Below are positions 31,759-41,579 of a stretch of DNA of 64,000 nucleotides, in pieces. The notes beneath the pieces were generated by a model, which was not told the origin of the DNA, made no database searches, and saw only the letters and a list, made by a program, of their open reading frames with translations. Every line of letters starts with the position of its first letter. The stretch's first letter is position 1. The DNA comes from Atribacter laminatus (GTDB taxonomy: Bacteria; Atribacterota; Atribacteria; Atribacterales; Atribacteraceae): contig NZ_CP065383.1 in assembly GCF_015775515.1 (NCBI RefSeq), forward strand, positions 1,922,001 to 1,986,000, given 5' to 3'. Both the position numbers and the translations under genes were made by a program.

Positions 31759-32574
31759 TTAATTAACCTTAAAGAAGTAAGGAAGGAATTTCACAAAGAA
31801 ATAGGACAAAATCAAAGGTGGGATGGAAAGAAGGATAACCGATGCGCAAATTTGTCCCCAAGGAACTTCCATTCCAACCACCGCAAAAGCAGCTGAAGCA
31901 ACCGGCATAGTCACTGCACGTTGAGAAGTAATGACAAAGGCTAGGAAGAATTCATTCCACAAAAGAATAAAGATAAAGATACACATACCCAAGATGCTGG
32001 GAATTGCTAAAGGTAAAGCTATGCGAGAAAAGACTTGAAATTGGGTACATCCTTCTAAGTGAGCAGCTTCCTCGCATTCAACGGGCACCTGCTTGAAACA
32101 TTCAATTGTTAACCAGATCATGGTGCTAATTGCAATGGTCAGATATGTAAATATGACTGCTGGCATGCTGTCCAGAAGCCTTAACCGCATCCAAATCAAG
32201 AAAAAAGGGAGGGCAACCGCGACCGGAGGCATGAATCTTAAAGACAGGATAAAAAAGCGAAGATCGGCACTTCTTTTAAACTTTATCCGAGCAAAAATGT
32301 ATCCAACGGGAACCCCAAAAATAAAACCCAAGAGAAGCGATATGGGAACTATGATAAGACTGTTACGGAGACCGTGCATAAGAGTTGGCATTTGAAGAAC
32401 TCTTTTATAGTTATCCATTACTGGAGTAAAGATTAACTTAGGAGGATAACTAATGATATCAACCCTTGACTTAAACGAAGACAAAAACATCCAGAGAATC
32501 GGGGCTAAAGCAATGATTAGAACGATAATTATGATAATTTTATAGAAAATATTCTTTCCATTTAATCGTGCCAT
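31759..32574 (-). CDS. CUT1 polyol/sugar ABC transporter permease (MalG type)
   Basis: 271 aa from ATG 32574 (MARLNGKN). The longer frame would run through the preceding permease gene and is rejected. Six helices. The EAA loop 'EEAAHLEGCTQFQVFSRI' contacts the ATPase. The first periplasmic part ('SFKSRVDIISYPPKLIFTP') is typical of the sorbitol/mannitol MtlG group. The start overlaps the upstream permease end by 13 nt. No ATPase gene is present in this operon. Confidence 0.92.
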   Translation of the reverse strand: MARLNGKNIFYKIIIIIVLIIALAPILWMFLSSFKSRVDIISYPPKLIFTPVMDNYKRVLQMPTLMHGLRNSLIIVPISLLLGFIFGVPVGYIFARIKFKRSADLRFFILSLRFMPPVAVALPFFLIWMRLRLLDSMPAVIFTYLTIAISTMIWLTIECFKQVPVECEEAAHLEGCTQFQVFSRIALPLAIPSILGMCIFIFILLWNEFFLAFVITSQRAVTMPVASAAFAVVGMEVPWGQICASVILLSIPPLILSYFFVKFLPYFFKVN

Positions 32575-33437
32575 CTGACTAGCCCCCTCCATACGATAGT
32601 AATCAAAACAATGGTGATCACCAGCATAACAATTGACATTGAAGAGGCGTAAGAGACCCGACCTGCTGAACCAATTCCCTGCCAATAAGCATACATATCC
32701 AAAGTTTCGGTAGCAATACCAGGACCACCTGCAGTTAGCACAAATATGAAATCAAACGAACGGAGGGATTCCATCATTTTAATAAAAAAGATTGAGAGAA
32801 AGGGCGGAATAATCACCGGGAAGATAATGAAGCGATAGAGTTGCCACCTTTTGGCTCCATCGAGTGAGCCAGCTTCGACAATTTCCTTGGGAATATCTTG
32901 TAAAAGAATAATGGTTAAAGCCGCAATCAAAAAGGACCACTGCCAGATGTCGATAGCCGCTACTGAGTAAAGAGCATAGGTGGGATTTTCTAAGAAGCCA
33001 ATAGGTCCGATTCTAAAAAAGCTTAAGAAGTAATTAATGATTCCAATTGATGACGAATACATTAATCGCCACATATAAGCTGCCCCCACACGGGGAAGCA
33101 GGGCAGGAATAATAAAGATAAAGAGACAGATGGTTCTAAAACCACCTTTTGCATTATCGTTTATTAGAGGAGCTAACAATCCGGCACCAAAAAAAACCGA
33201 AAATCCAACAGTAATAACCGACCAAAACAAAGAAATACGGAGAGAATTGAGAAAACGCCCATCAGTGAAGAGTTGTATATAATTTTTCAATCCGACGAAT
33301 CGAATTGGGCGGGAATTTCTTAGGTCCCAATTTTGCAGTGAATAATAAAAAGCGTTGAGCAGTGGATAGAAGGCTAAAAAAAACAGAATAATAAAAGTTG
33401 GAATCATAAACACTAAAAAAAATTGTTTTTTGGTCAC
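32562..33437 (-). CDS. CUT1 polyol/sugar ABC transporter permease (MalF type)
   Basis: 291 aa. Six helices, and the EAA loop 'IVEAGSLDGAKRWQLYRFI' lies in the second half. 'YYSLQNWDLRNSRPIRFVGL' follows helix 1 as in MtlF/SmoF-type permeases. It is separated from the binding-protein gene by 115 bp that hold a terminator-like hairpin, so expression is expected to be lower than that of the binding protein. Confidence 0.92.
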   Translation of the reverse strand: MTKKQFFLVFMIPTFIILFFLAFYPLLNAFYYSLQNWDLRNSRPIRFVGLKNYIQLFTDGRFLNSLRISLFWSVITVGFSVFFGAGLLAPLINDNAKGGFRTICLFIFIIPALLPRVGAAYMWRLMYSSSIGIINYFLSFFRIGPIGFLENPTYALYSVAAIDIWQWSFLIAALTIILLQDIPKEIVEAGSLDGAKRWQLYRFIIFPVIIPPFLSIFFIKMMESLRSFDFIFVLTAGGPGIATETLDMYAYWQGIGSAGRVSYASSMSIVMLVITIVLITIVWRGLVRWHD

Positions 33438-33552: not shown

Positions 33553-34833
33553 CTATTTTCCTAAGACTTCTTTTGCATAAGAAACTGCATCATCCAAAGC
33601 AGCCTGAATATCATATGATTGACCGGCATAAGCTTTAGTGAAGAGTTCTTCGAGCTTGACACCCAGATAATCACCAATTTCTGGCCATTCCGGTATTTGT
33701 AGTATGCACATTTGTTGAATTTTCATCATCTCAACCTGGGCTTCAACAAATTCTGCCGGATAGGCAGCGGCAAATTCGGGGCTGGCAAAAGTTGATTTAC
33801 GTGCGTTGGTGAGACCAGAACCTGCTACAACCTTCCGAATTTCATTTTCTTTACTGGTAAACCAACCTATGAACTTTCCGGCAGCAACTTTTAGTTCTTC
33901 AGTTGGACAACCTGCAACAGAAATTCCCAAACCATGAACCGCAGTATTGGAGATGGCACCCATGGGACCGGCGACTGGTTTTGAGTAGCCTACTTTGTCG
34001 TACACAACCGATCCTTTGGGATCCATAGTGTAATCCATTTTTAGGTTGGCATATTCAACAATTGCAACCTTTCCGGCATTGAAGTTATCCATTGCATCCG
34101 ACCAGGAAAGGGTAGGACTAGGGCTGTGTTTAATGAGTTCAATATAATACTCAACTGCTTTTACGGCTTCTGGCGAATTAAAAACTGGGACTCCATTTTC
34201 ATCAAGATACTGACCGCCAAACATCTTGAGATAGGGGCTAAATCTCCAGACGTTCATTCCCGACCCACGAAGTCCACGGACGGCGGTTCCGTATAGCTCA
34301 GGAGGATTATGGAAGTGTTTGACAACTTCTAAGTACTCATCGAGGGTTTGTGGGACGGCAATCCCATCTCTTTCAAAGAGATCTTTCCGATAAAACATAA
34401 CATTTCCTTCAAATGTCATTGGAGCACCGTAGGTTATATCATTGAAAGTTAGAACAGCTACTAGTGGTTCGGAAAAATCAGCGAAATCATTTTCTTCGGG
34501 GTAATAATCTTTAATGGGGACTAACCAGTTGTTGACTGCAAACTCGGCGACATTGGCTTCATCCATGTAATACACCTGATATTGACCAGCTTTGGTTGAG
34601 GCATCAAGACGGGATTTTGATCTTCGTTCTAATTCAGCAAAATAATGAAACACAACATCGATATTTTCTTTTTCTTCAAATTCTGGGAGGTATTGCTCAA
34701 GAAGTTCCCATTCTCGCCGGGGTTGGGTGAGAACGTTGATGGTAATTTTATTCTGTGCAGAAGCTAAACCGGGGATAAACAATAAACTCATAGTTATTGT
34801 GATTAATAAGAGTACAAATAGTGATTTTTTCAT
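33553..34833 (-). CDS. polyol-type extracellular binding protein, family 1
   Basis: 426 aa. The signal peptide ends near GLASAQN. The mature domain resembles sorbitol/mannitol binders (SmoE/MtlE type): 'QVYYMDEANVAEFAVNNWLV', 'DITYGAPMTFEGNVMFYRKD' and 'GSGMNVWRFSPYLKMFGGQY'. An AAGGAGG site precedes ATG. Together with the mannitol-1-phosphate dehydrogenase-like and FGGY kinase genes upstream, a hexitol or pentitol substrate is likely (inference). Confidence 0.9.
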   Translation of the reverse strand: MKKSLFVLLLITITMSLLFIPGLASAQNKITINVLTQPRREWELLEQYLPEFEEKENIDVVFHYFAELERRSKSRLDASTKAGQYQVYYMDEANVAEFAVNNWLVPIKDYYPEENDFADFSEPLVAVLTFNDITYGAPMTFEGNVMFYRKDLFERDGIAVPQTLDEYLEVVKHFHNPPELYGTAVRGLRGSGMNVWRFSPYLKMFGGQYLDENGVPVFNSPEAVKAVEYYIELIKHSPSPTLSWSDAMDNFNAGKVAIVEYANLKMDYTMDPKGSVVYDKVGYSKPVAGPMGAISNTAVHGLGISVAGCPTEELKVAAGKFIGWFTSKENEIRKVVAGSGLTNARKSTFASPEFAAAYPAEFVEAQVEMMKIQQMCILQIPEWPEIGDYLGVKLEELFTKAYAGQSYDIQAALDDAVSYAKEVLGK

Positions 34834-35081: not shown

Positions 35082-36791
35082 CTATAAATATCCTTCATCC
35101 CTTAGAATGTCGGCTACCCAGGAGGCGGCCATAGCTACAACTGTGGTACATTTGTCGAGGTGAGCTCCAGCTTCTTCGAACTCTTTTCGAACTTCTTTTG
35201 ATTTTAAACAAAAGGATTTTCCGAAGATTTGTTTGTGAATGTCAGCACAAATCACGCTTCCATAGGTTTCAATAAATTTATCATGGAGTTTTTGCGCCAT
35301 TTCATAGGCTTTGTACTGGGTTTCTTTATCACCATCAATGTCTAATTTTTCAAGTCGCCTTCCGACGTAGCTTCCCATTATCATTGTGCCCCCTGAATAA
35401 CCACCACAGGGACCGTCGCCAGTAATCGCCATGCCTCCGGAAAAACCACTCGCTGATTGGAAGAGAGAAGGATTTGATTTTCCGACATACTTAAAGAAAG
35501 CGGCAATGAGGCATTGAGCACACCCTCGATATTCCTTTTCGTACTCAAACCCAATTTCGTAAAGTTGTTTTTTTACTTTTATTCTGGATAAATCTTCATT
35601 TACATTTTTTGTTTCACTGAGTTTTTGATAATGATCGGAAATCAATTGAATCAATTCAACTTCCCGATCAAGCTGGCAAAACTCTCGAATGGCCTCTTTT
35701 ATCGAGTGATTTTTTAAGTATTCCTGAATGGTTCGTGATGCTTGATCTTCTTCTGAAACAAAAAGAAAGGCAGCAGCAACGGCTTTCGCCAGAAAATAGG
35801 GCATAATGCCATTTCGGATGCACATGAGAGCAGGTCCGATAAGCCGATCTTCTTTTTTCAGCTTTCGAATGGGATCGGCTCCTACCCGGTTAATTTTATC
35901 TTTTAACATGGGGTTTGCCATATTTTTTAGAACTCGGTTATTCCATTCCTTCATTTCCTCATCAGAATAACCAAACTCTTTTTGTAGCGCTCGGCTTGAT
36001 TCGTTGAGTGCTTCGACTGCCATTTGTTGAATTGCTTGATCTTGAATGGATTCAATAATATATTGATATTCTTTTTGCTCTCCCAGGTAGGCATACACAG
36101 CGTGAATGGTATTATAGGTATACATTTTTCTCTTTTCCTCGTGCGACATATTGGTGGTGTAAACAAAGCTTTTAAATTGGGGTGGTTCTCCCTTGAATGA
36201 CTTTCTATCCAAGGTAAGTTCCGGGTATCCATTGGTTAAAACGGTTAGCGCATCCTTTTCTTTCATTTCTGGAGTGGGCTCAATTCCCATTCGGATAATT
36301 AAGGTATCTACCAACCCAATATATTGGTAAAAATATTCCCTTCCGGCTTTAGAAAGCTCTTTAAAAAGATATTTTTTGAATTGCTCTGAGGGCTGAAAGG
36401 TATTTGTGCTCATGAGAATATCAAGAGGACGATTAATTTTATTCATAGATCGTTTTTCAATAATTAAAGCAATGTCTTTGGCGATCTGTTCGAAAGCTGA
36501 TGGGAAGACAACCAGTGATAAAATCGAACGTTCATTTATTTTTTGGAAAATTTGGTCTTTTTCGCTGATATGAAAAGCCTGAAAATCTTTAATAATGACT
36601 TCTTCTTTTTCTTCAAGACTGGGGAGGTTTACTATAGTGTATTGCTTTTGGGAATTTAATTGCTTTATTAACTCCCAATTGGAATCGACAAAGGTTAAGT
36701 TGTATCCTGCCTTAAAAAATAAATCTGCGATAAATCCTCGACCAATCTTTCCTGCTCCCCAAATGATAATATTTTTTGCTTGATTTGACAT
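35082..36791 (-). CDS. mannitol-1-phosphate 5-dehydrogenase fused to C_GCAxxG_C_C redox domain
   Basis: 569 aa, against about 380 for MtlD. Residues 1-400 are MtlD-like: Rossmann motif GAGKIGRGF (12-20), then 'DILMSTNTFQPSEQF' and 'MYTYNTIHAVYAYLGEQKEY', the active-site block. Residues about 406-569 match the C_GCAxxG_C_C family: GCAQC (C424, C427), 'SGFSGGMAITGDGPCGGYSG' (C462), VIC (C515), SFC (C528) and DKC (C548). One reading frame covers both with no frameshift. It would oxidise mannitol-1-phosphate (or a similar polyol phosphate) to the ketose phosphate. The second domain may bind a metal or pass electrons. Confidence 0.88.
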   Translation of the reverse strand: MSNQAKNIIIWGAGKIGRGFIADLFFKAGYNLTFVDSNWELIKQLNSQKQYTIVNLPSLEEKEEVIIKDFQAFHISEKDQIFQKINERSILSLVVFPSAFEQIAKDIALIIEKRSMNKINRPLDILMSTNTFQPSEQFKKYLFKELSKAGREYFYQYIGLVDTLIIRMGIEPTPEMKEKDALTVLTNGYPELTLDRKSFKGEPPQFKSFVYTTNMSHEEKRKMYTYNTIHAVYAYLGEQKEYQYIIESIQDQAIQQMAVEALNESSRALQKEFGYSDEEMKEWNNRVLKNMANPMLKDKINRVGADPIRKLKKEDRLIGPALMCIRNGIMPYFLAKAVAAAFLFVSEEDQASRTIQEYLKNHSIKEAIREFCQLDREVELIQLISDHYQKLSETKNVNEDLSRIKVKKQLYEIGFEYEKEYRGCAQCLIAAFFKYVGKSNPSLFQSASGFSGGMAITGDGPCGGYSGGTMIMGSYVGRRLEKLDIDGDKETQYKAYEMAQKLHDKFIETYGSVICADIHKQIFGKSFCLKSKEVRKEFEEAGAHLDKCTTVVAMAASWVADILRDEGYL

Positions 36792-36844
36792 ATTCGTTAT
36801 CCTTTCTTAGGTTTTTAACTTAGAGACATATTGTTTCGAAAAAA

Positions 36845-36874
36845 AATATGGTTTTTTTGAAGTAGTGTTGTCAA
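36845..36874 (-). promoter_or_regulatory. promoter of the mtlD-like fusion gene
   Basis: On the minus strand a perfect TTGACA (36869-36874) and CATATT (36845-36850) are 18 bp apart, about 53 bp before the start codon. Confidence 0.6.
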
Positions 36875-36943: not shown

Positions 36944-38476
36944 TTAAATGAAAGAAAACAGTTGACTTATAGTTTTATTGAGTGTTTTATATTCATGGTA
37001 TTTTTCATTATACACTTTATTCATTTCTCTATTTGGAGAAAATTCCTGATATTCTAAATTTCGATTGACAGCATCAATACCTTCTTCGAAATTTGTAAAT
37101 ATACCGACTCCGATACCGGAAAGAATAGCTGCTCCTAAACAGCCGGCTTCCACATTTTTTGAAGATAATATTGTTTTACCGGTAATATCCGCTTTTAATT
37201 GAAGCCAAAAGTTTGATCGTGACGCTCCGCCCACCGATTTCATTTTATGAATTGTAGTTCCTGATATAGATTCCATCAGTTCGAGATTGATCCTCATTTC
37301 GTAAGTTATCCCTTCGAGAACAGACCGTGCTATGTCATTTTTGTTCGTTGCTAAAGTCAAACCATAAAAAACACCTTTCGCGTTTGGGTTCATAGTTGGA
37401 TTTCCACTCCCTGATAAATAGGGAATGAAATAAAGATTTTTAGGATGGCTTGGCATGTTCGCTTCAATCACTTGATAAACATTCTCTTGAGAGTCTTTTG
37501 TTTGATCATTATTTGTTTGGAAAAAATTGTCTTTAAACCATTGATAGGCAGCACCAGCAGTTAAAACTTGAGAAAAAGAGCAGTAGGTATTGGGATAGCA
37601 ATGGTTATAACAGCAAATTTTTGCATTGAACATGGTCTCATTGAGGTGAGGTTGTGAAAATGGGACAAGAATGACTTCAATGGTACCAGTTGTGTCCAAG
37701 GCCGAACCTTCAGAAACGACACCCATACCAATTGCTCCACAAGGTTGATCATGCCCTCCGCAGATAATTTGGGTTTTTTCTGAAAGAGCAGTTTCTTTGG
37801 CAACTTTTTTACTGAGATGGCCAATGGAGATGCCCGAAGGACAGGGTCGAGAAAGCTGATCTTCCCGTACAGAGCAAAGGTTTAAGATTTTCTCATTCCA
37901 GGATTTTTGATGTAAATCGAAAAACAGAGTTCTTGCCGCGCTTGAATAGCTAATTGTATAATCTGCCCCCAAACGAGACGCAATAAAATCTTCATAACAT
38001 AAAAACTTTACTGTTTTATCAAATATTCGAGGATAATGATTCTTTAACCATAATATCTTACAGGCTGAGTAGGTTGAATGAATCGGCATACCGGTTGTTT
38101 TAAAGACCCATTTTTCTCCGAGTTTTTCACTCAAAAAGGTTGTTTCACGCGCAGACCTGGTATCGAAAGCCAGAAGGCTGTTATGTAAGGGAACCAATTG
38201 GTGATCAAAGGGAGTAACTGTATCTCCCATGGCGGAAATGCTGATTGCTTTTATATTCCGTTTGTTATCCAGAGAGGCGAGTTCATTTAAGATTGAGACT
38301 ATAGCTTCCCAAACCTGGTTAGGAGTAAGTTCAAAGTGGCTTTTACTTTTTGAGGAAACCGCATATCCTCGATAGGACTTACCAATAACCTGGCCTCGAT
38401 TTGATAGCAGAATACCTTTTGCCGAAGAAGTGCCAATGTCTAATCCGATAACACTCATACCATTCACAACTTTCAT
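36944..38476 (-). CDS. FGGY-family carbohydrate kinase (xylulokinase-like)
   Basis: 510 aa. The N-terminal ATPase motif is 'VIGLDIGTSSAKGILLSNRG', then 'ISAMGDTVTPFDHQLVPLHN' with the substrate-contacting region. The second FGGY domain has 'GAAYQWFKDNFF', 'PYLSGSGNPTMNPNAKGVFYG' and 'SVGGASRSNFWLQLKADI'. It phosphorylates a ketopentose, hexulose or polyol. ATG 38458 (MSVIGLD) is a likely alternative start; neither has a strong ribosome site. It lies 152 nt upstream of the mtlD-like gene on the same strand and completes the polyol route. Confidence 0.92.
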   Translation of the reverse strand: MKVVNGMSVIGLDIGTSSAKGILLSNRGQVIGKSYRGYAVSSKSKSHFELTPNQVWEAIVSILNELASLDNKRNIKAISISAMGDTVTPFDHQLVPLHNSLLAFDTRSARETTFLSEKLGEKWVFKTTGMPIHSTYSACKILWLKNHYPRIFDKTVKFLCYEDFIASRLGADYTISYSSAARTLFFDLHQKSWNEKILNLCSVREDQLSRPCPSGISIGHLSKKVAKETALSEKTQIICGGHDQPCGAIGMGVVSEGSALDTTGTIEVILVPFSQPHLNETMFNAKICCYNHCYPNTYCSFSQVLTAGAAYQWFKDNFFQTNNDQTKDSQENVYQVIEANMPSHPKNLYFIPYLSGSGNPTMNPNAKGVFYGLTLATNKNDIARSVLEGITYEMRINLELMESISGTTIHKMKSVGGASRSNFWLQLKADITGKTILSSKNVEAGCLGAAILSGIGVGIFTNFEEGIDAVNRNLEYQEFSPNREMNKVYNEKYHEYKTLNKTISQLFSFI

Positions 38477-40259: not shown

Positions 40260-40733
40260 TTAAGTTTCAGGATACCTTCTTTCCGGCTCGCGAATTTTTC
40301 CATTGTTACCAATTTCGTAAATTGTTCCTAAGGATGCTTCGGTATCAAGATAATAAAATTCGTCCTCATCGAATTTTCCACTTTGAATGACTTCAATACC
40401 CTTTTTCTTAAACTCTACAAGGGCTTTATGACAATCCTCATAAAATAATTTTATATGGTGTAGACCTTCGCCTTTTTTCTCCAAAAACTCATCGTAGACA
40501 CTGCGACCGGTTAATGGCTGCATGAGTTCAATTTGAATGCTTCCAGCCCAAGTAACGGCAAGGAGATATTTGTGGTTAGAAGGTTTCCCCCTTACCATAG
40601 AATCTCGGACATCTGGAGGTCCAAAGGTGTAAATATCCCAAGGACCAATATGAAAAGCTTCCCAAAAATATTTCATCGCAGCATCAAGATCTTTTACTAC
40701 ATGAGCAACTTGGATGACATCGCCATCTTTCAT
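40260..40733 (-). CDS. VOC family protein, paralogue of the 13822-14292 gene
   Basis: 157 aa, about two thirds identical by eye to the VOC protein at 13822-14292 over its whole length ('GPWDIYTFGPPDVRDSMVRG', 'IQIELMQPLTGRSVYDEFLE', 'GEGLHHIKLFYEDCHKAL'). The metal-ligand positions (His and Glu) are kept, so it can be active. A GAAAGGGAGG site precedes ATG. It follows a 5'-truncated RbsC permease gene, repeating the permease-VOC order of the other locus. Confidence 0.85.
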   Translation of the reverse strand: MKDGDVIQVAHVVKDLDAAMKYFWEAFHIGPWDIYTFGPPDVRDSMVRGKPSNHKYLLAVTWAGSIQIELMQPLTGRSVYDEFLEKKGEGLHHIKLFYEDCHKALVEFKKKGIEVIQSGKFDEDEFYYLDTEASLGTIYEIGNNGKIREPERRYPET

Positions 40734-40802: not shown

Positions 40803-41579
40803 TTAATGGCTGGAAATCGCTTTTTTTCGAGATTTGGATTTTTCATTAAAGTAATTTATTGCAAGGACTGCAATGATAATAAAACCCCACATAGCTCTGA
40901 TGAAAAAAGGATCCATACGTAATAAATTAACCCCACTGGAAATAACTTGCAGAATAACCACCGAAACGACCATACCAGACACCTTACCGACTCCTCCAGA
41001 AGGATCTACACCACCCAAGAAGCAGGCAAGGATAGAAACCAGGAGATAGGACTCAACATAGTTGGCTTTTACCGAGTTGAGCTGGCCAATCATGATGAAG
41101 GCAGTAATAGCTGAAAAAAGAGACGAGAGCAAGAATCCCTTAAGAATAATGGATTTGGTATCGATATTTGAAAATTTAGCTGCTGTATAATTGGAACCTA
41201 ACATATACAGACTGTAACCAAAAGTTGTTTTATCCAAAATAATGTATAAGATAAAAGTAAAAATAACAAATATATAAAATGGTATTGGGATTCCGAGGAA
41301 TAAACCATTTCCTATGGTAATCAGAGACTTAGGGAAACCGGTTAGAGTATATCCCTTGGTGAGAACAATATTTACTCCATTTAAAAGGGTCATAGTGCCG
41401 AGCGTTGCTAACATATCGGGTACCCTTAAATAACCGGTTAAAAAACCACTCAAAAGACCAGCACCCATAGCGGCAAGAATACCCATAGTCATTGAAATGA
41501 TGACCAACAAACCTGATGCTTCTGTTGGGTTCCCTCCGGTGAGGTGGCGAAGAGCCAGAGCTGTGATTATTCCAGTGAT
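40803..41579 (-). pseudogene. 5'-truncated RbsC-type permease remnant
   Basis: The frame is open from an in-frame TAA at 41580-41582 to 40803 (about 258 codons). It covers the second two thirds of an RbsC permease: 'GYLRVPDMLATLGTMTLLNG', 'LFLGIPIPFYIFVIFTFILY' and 'LACFLGGVDPSGGVGK'. It aligns with the second permease of the intact operon (12755-13747) from about residue 75 onward. The first helices and the GGIDLS signature are missing, and the frame abuts the end of an unrelated secreted-protein gene. The first usable start (TTG 41510) has no clear ribosome site. No binding protein or ATPase gene is near it. Confidence 0.75.

Follow-up and report, generated by a model that had tools for sequence, protein, structure and literature searches.

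Genus-wide fusion of an MtlD-type dehydrogenase and a C_GCAxxG_C_C cysteine domain in Atribacter laminatus

Introduction

Proteins of the C_GCAxxG_C_C family are common among anaerobes, but to our knowledge no function has been assigned to them. The appearance of such a domain at the C-terminus of a polyol dehydrogenase of Atribacter laminatus, which belongs to a genus of deep-subsurface bacteria, raises the question of whether the fusion is genuine and, if it is, what the cysteine half contributes to the enzyme. The gene lies in a stretch of 64,000 nucleotides (contig NZ_CP065383.1, positions 1,922,001 to 1,986,000; GC content 38.0%), hereafter called the window, of a genome represented by one contig of 3,101,225 bases.

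Results

Organization of the fused gene

The gene is a single frame of 569 codons starting from ATG, with no internal stops (Table 1). In agreement with the preliminary description of the locus, this frame joins a full-length MtlD-type protein (residues 1-391) to a complete cysteine domain. All three Pfam domains score above their gathering cutoffs: Mannitol_dh with 82.2 bits (cutoff 27, E 6e-23), Mannitol_dh_C with 99.2 bits (cutoff 30.7, E 3e-28) and C_GCAxxG_C_C, aligned at residues 424-562, with 80.2 bits (cutoff 27, E 2e-22). The last domain also scores 48.7 against TIGR01909, for which the curated cutoff is 47.4. No in-frame ATG, GTG or TTG codon was found at residues 384-424 in the five full-length fused genes; internal re-initiation is therefore unlikely, and a separate C-terminal product made in this way was rejected.

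Table 1. Features of the fused gene and its surroundings, and loci with stand-alone C_GCAxxG_C_C (CGC) genes. Positions are those of the window unless a locus is named.
Feature	Position	Strand	Basis
Fused CDS, MtlD-type dehydrogenase and C_GCAxxG_C_C domain, 569 aa	35082..36791	-	ORF, Pfam, genus-wide conservation
Mannitol_dh Rossmann domain (PF01232), residues 7-206	36174..36773	-	Pfam and alignment with 3h2z
Mannitol_dh_C domain (PF08125), residues 219-391, catalytic-type K222-x4-N227-x2-H230	35619..36137	-	Pfam and 3h2z alignment
Variable linker, residues 392-415	35547..35618	-	Relaxed constraint
C_GCAxxG_C_C domain (PF09719), residues 416-569	35085..35546	-	Pfam, TIGR01909, family alignments
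Shine-Dalgarno-like AGAAAGGA, 8 nt upstream of the fused-gene ATG	36800..36807	-	
Promoter-like TTGACA-18-CATATT, upstream of the fused gene	36845..36874	-	Consensus match only; scan gave no excess over shuffles
FGGY carbohydrate kinase, upstream neighbour	36944..38476	-	Pfam
ABC sugar-type solute-binding protein, downstream neighbour	33553..34833	-	Pfam; conserved in genus
ABC sugar permease 1	32562..33437	-	Pfam
ABC sugar permease 2	31759..32685	-	Pfam
SorC-CGC-SDR-E1a-E1b-E2-FGGY	L044 (G043)		
SorC-CGC-E1a-E1b-E2	L045 (G041)		
CGC-E1a-E1b-E2	L049 (G048)		
FGGY-CGC-2HADH-ZnADH-SDR-ABC	L082		
Two tandem diverged C_GCAxxG_C_C genes, 209 and 216 aa	L041, 9368-10699 (A. laminatus genome, about 712-714 kb)		

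Reality and distribution of the fusion

The fusion is present in all six genomes of the genus. Five independent assemblies contain it at full length, with 80-92% identity, and in the sixth genus member the contig begins at residue 320 of the fused protein and still crosses the junction. The dN/dS ratios of both halves, about 0.08-0.18 in most pairs, indicate purifying selection, while those of the linker (residues 391-415, about 0.3-0.8) point to relaxed constraint. The preliminary description had allowed for a stop codon lost by sequencing error between two genes and for homologues that are always separate in close relatives. Both were checked and ruled out, the former because the fusion is kept in six of six independent genus assemblies with both halves under purifying selection, the latter because the genus members keep the halves joined. 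Since six genomes, several of them from independent MAG projects, show the identical fusion with equal length and intact frame, and since selection acts on each side of the junction, the chance that an assembly or sequencing error joined two separate genes is negligible, and the split-gene reading was discarded on the grounds of genus-wide conservation. The MtlD-type/C_GCAxxG_C_C protein is a genuine, selected fusion.

A scan of the genome collection for the fusion returned matches from Candidatus Atribacteria MAGs only. Outside the genus it was not found in about 540 genomes, comprising a broad set of 386, the remaining members of its family, order and phylum, and further genomes from four more phyla; 103 genomes of the search in other phyla had no MtlD-type match at all and count as weak negatives. 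Relatives were likewise not found in viral contigs. The fusion, which is made from two known families and confined to one genus, is apparently undescribed in the literature searched, as the portions available of publications naming the C_GCAxxG_C_C motif contain no mention of a polyol-dehydrogenase fusion. It is a local variation on known components.

A separate observation concerns codons 391-490 (window 35321-35621), that is, the linker and the first half of the cysteine domain. Here the window and genome G002 have a variant in common whose DNA identity to G003 and G005 is only about 70%, compared with 94-97% in the flanking stretches. Such mosaic divergence suggests allele exchange or gene conversion within the fused gene.

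The MtlD-type half

The Rossmann motif GAGKIGRGF is intact in the fused protein and is followed, after strand 2, by D36 (aligned with 3h2z). K222, N227 and H230, which align to RKLFTLNTGH of 3h2z, are invariant among the genus fusions. When 38 MtlD domains were placed in a tree, those of the fusions grouped only with an unfused MtlD-type protein from a sister genus (G007; 40% identity to the fused protein), joined by a long branch with full support. The gene for this unfused protein has a class II aldolase gene on one side and, on the other, a gene that resembles a zinc-type alcohol dehydrogenase (assigned by eye). The canonical MtlD proteins of Atribacterota are placed elsewhere in the tree, including the second copy of the A. 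laminatus genome, which is located at 593 kb within a SorC-PfkB-mtlD-ZnADH-E1-MFS-FGGY cluster (the MFS label was given by eye). The fused protein falls below the NCBIfam M1PDH equivalog cutoff (259 vs 356 bits at best), a test that discriminates poorly, given that the canonical paralogue fails it as well (286 vs 356).

As judged from the tree, the MtlD half represents a second, divergent lineage, far from the canonical MtlD of the same genome. The former designation of this half as a full mannitol-1-phosphate dehydrogenase is a family label only, given the deep divergence of the lineage. Because the genome encodes a separate canonical MtlD, the substrate of the fused enzyme may be a polyol phosphate other than mannitol-1-phosphate. 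For the same reason, the ability of A. laminatus to grow on mannitol and sorbitol (PMC7736352) could rest on the canonical copy and its cluster.

The cysteine half

All six cysteines pointed out previously (C424, C427, C462, C515, C528 and C548) are indeed present, but the family alignment reduces the family-wide set to C424, C462, C515 and C548, with C424 missing in a single row (L082), where the ORF call starts downstream of it. C427 is common to the nearest CSQC/CAQC subgroup, H544 is a subgroup residue too, and C528 was seen in the family alignments in fused proteins only. AlphaFold gave a helical model of the domain at low confidence (pLDDT 36 for the whole protein and 41 for the domain, with an alignment of four close sequences only).

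Neither a phmmer search with the cysteine domain nor a profile of its close subgroup matched any entry in the PDB. A profile built from 12 diverse family members gave one significant match, the split-Soret cytochrome c 1h21 (E 2.4e-4), in which the four family cysteines are matched over two stretches, the second of them weak. The first stretch narrowly passes PF09719 (27.6, cutoff 27). EPR reportedly pointed to a [2Fe-2S]-like centre in this cytochrome, for which cysteine ligands were proposed. No CxxCH haem site occurs in the 569 residues of the fused protein, the sole CxxC being CAQCL. As the same four cysteines align in split-Soret cytochrome c, for which an extra non-haem iron centre is reported, an Fe-S cluster on C424, C462, C515 and C548 is the most likely candidate for the cysteine domain. 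The earlier idea of a redox or iron centre in this domain thereby gains indirect support from the profile match; the domain could also bind Zn or work through thiols.

Four C_GCAxxG_C_C relatives (in G187, G073, G220 and G358) have one in-frame TGA each and are probably selenocysteine forms. In Bacteroides thetaiotaomicron, a C-GCAxxG-C-C gene shares an operon with a metal transporter and is upregulated 2-3 fold under iron depletion (PMC10434189), a weak iron link for the family on which we do not rely.

Neighbourhood and stand-alone relatives

The fused gene is followed by genes for an ABC sugar-binding protein and two permeases in all five genomes that reach this region (the window, G001, G003, G004 and G005). 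G003 and G005 lack the upstream FGGY kinase at this position, and G002 has no room for it. Other genus members also keep, close to the fused gene, a gene for a Glyoxalase_4 (VOC) protein (window 40260-40733), whose product is possibly part of the same pathway. Next to it, an RbsC-type ABC permease of 235 aa (window 40803-41510) looks truncated in comparison with the 328-aa version in G005; in that genome the glyoxalase-fold gene comes after a complete ribose-type cassette (binding protein, ATPase and two permeases).

Within the phylum, several independent loci (L041, L044, L045, L049 and L082; Table 1) have stand-alone C_GCAxxG_C_C genes in operons for sugar or 2-oxoacid dehydrogenases. The pair in L041 adjoins genes for an IlvD/EDD-type dehydratase, an SDR, an FGGY kinase and ABC sugar proteins. 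An operon of a SorC regulator, C_GCAxxG_C_C, E1 alpha/beta and E2 recurs in L044, L045 and L049, and links the family to a pyruvate-dehydrogenase-like complex. Outside the phylum the immediately adjacent genes are diverse and encode radical SAM, carboxymuconolactone decarboxylase-like, URO-D and zincin proteins. Two of the four independent C_GCAxxG_C_C loci lie within 5 kb of an FGGY kinase; this association alone reaches only P about 0.03, since sugar genes are so common in the A. laminatus genome (24 FGGY kinases over the cutoff, with 7.6% of the genome within 5 kb of one). The association with sugar genes is thus to be regarded as suggestive and lineage-specific, and it is weak outside the phylum.

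Discussion

Taken together with the family context, the data lead us to favour, tentatively, a two-domain polyol-phosphate dehydrogenase whose C-terminal metal module would make activity, stability or docking depend on redox, iron or oxygen. A phosphorylated sugar alcohol, which probably enters by the ABC transporter encoded just downstream, would be oxidized by the MtlD-type half in an NAD-dependent manner, as family and context suggest. The C-terminal half would be a cysteine-ligated metal module, most likely carrying an Fe-S cluster if the split-Soret homology is a guide. Relatives have this module as a protein of its own, whose gene adjoins those for sugar and 2-oxoacid dehydrogenases, and here it is tied to its partner in cis, where it may couple dehydrogenase activity, stability or the docking of a partner to redox state, iron or oxygen, and probably does not act as the electron acceptor. 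The sensing of redox state, also put forward in the preliminary description, is a possible role, as is a regulatory one.

The other half of that proposal, the passing of electrons during polyol oxidation, is not supported. MtlD-type enzymes transfer hydride to NAD, and without a flavin, for which the fused protein has no domain, a one-electron Fe-S domain cannot readily take hydride-derived electrons, so that direct transfer is unlikely. The fused protein also lacks a CxxCH haem motif, and the fusion is not required for mannitol use, as other members of the order carry unfused MtlD and Thermatribacter velox grows on mannitol as well (PMC11227167). Therefore, even with an Fe-S domain made likely by homology to split-Soret cytochrome c and a host that is an H2-producing fermenter (PMC7736352), it seems quite improbable that the domain relays electrons from polyol oxidation or NADH to ferredoxin, hydrogenase or another acceptor; a redox-, iron- or oxygen-responsive accessory module is the more likely fit. 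An equally long shot is the broader notion that an Fe-S module links the polyol-phosphate dehydrogenase to a non-NAD redox partner such as ferredoxin or hydrogenase, to which the enzyme would pass electrons or from which it would receive a signal setting its activity, with stand-alone C_GCAxxG_C_C proteins doing likewise in trans for the sugar dehydrogenases of anaerobes. If this were true, a large orphan family would gain a function.

An unlikely but somewhat better candidate is a bifunctional enzyme, in which the cysteine domain carries out a further reaction of that pathway, for instance on the ketose phosphate from the MtlD half, with the intermediate channelled. Fusion and operon partners often have a pathway in common, and the sugar operons of the phylum repeatedly hold stand-alone versions. 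Selenocysteine versions of the family, which are catalogued (PMC13188914), and the in-frame TGA of several distant members moreover point to a reactive thiol. However, the operon partners are so varied (E1/E2, SDR, 2-hydroxyacid dehydrogenase, IlvD) that no single missing step is apparent, the context outside the phylum is not sugar-related, and no resemblance to catalytic families was found. The same selenocysteine variants, unusual for a structural Zn site, weigh against a module that is structural or serves oligomerisation and plays no part in redox chemistry, as does the iron centre reported for the sole solved relative. The conserved cysteines and H544 could equally bind Zn, and the low-confidence helical model is compatible with such a module, yet we consider it rather unlikely.

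Whichever role applies, a genus-wide natural fusion to an assayable NAD enzyme is a rare handle on a widespread orphan family, as polyol-phosphate oxidation with and without the cysteine domain offers a readout, and the sequence link to the iron centre of split-Soret cytochrome c provides a specific, testable hypothesis. The phylum-wide operon pattern suggests that in Atribacterota the C_GCAxxG_C_C family partners with sugar dehydrogenases.

Comparison with known systems

The window domain agrees with the C_GCAxxG_C_C family (PF09719, TIGR01909) in having all four family cysteines and in passing both curated cutoffs. Members of this family are normally stand-alone proteins of about 140-200 aa, whereas the window copy is fused and has the subgroup CAQC motif and the extra C528. 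With split-Soret cytochrome c 1h21 it has in common a C_GCAxxG_C_C core with four aligned cysteines; the latter, however, is a dihaem cytochrome c, while the window protein is devoid of CxxCH and carries the domain on a dehydrogenase. Like the Shigella M1PDH 3h2z (MtlD; PF01232 and PF08125), the fused protein has the full-length two-domain fold (E 7e-47), from which it differs by the extra 150-residue C-terminal domain. Natural fusion of MtlD is also known from the bifunctional HAD phosphatase-M1PDH (NF046057, 7ocn), although that enzyme carries a HAD phosphatase at its N-terminus, and the window protein a cysteine domain at its C-terminus.
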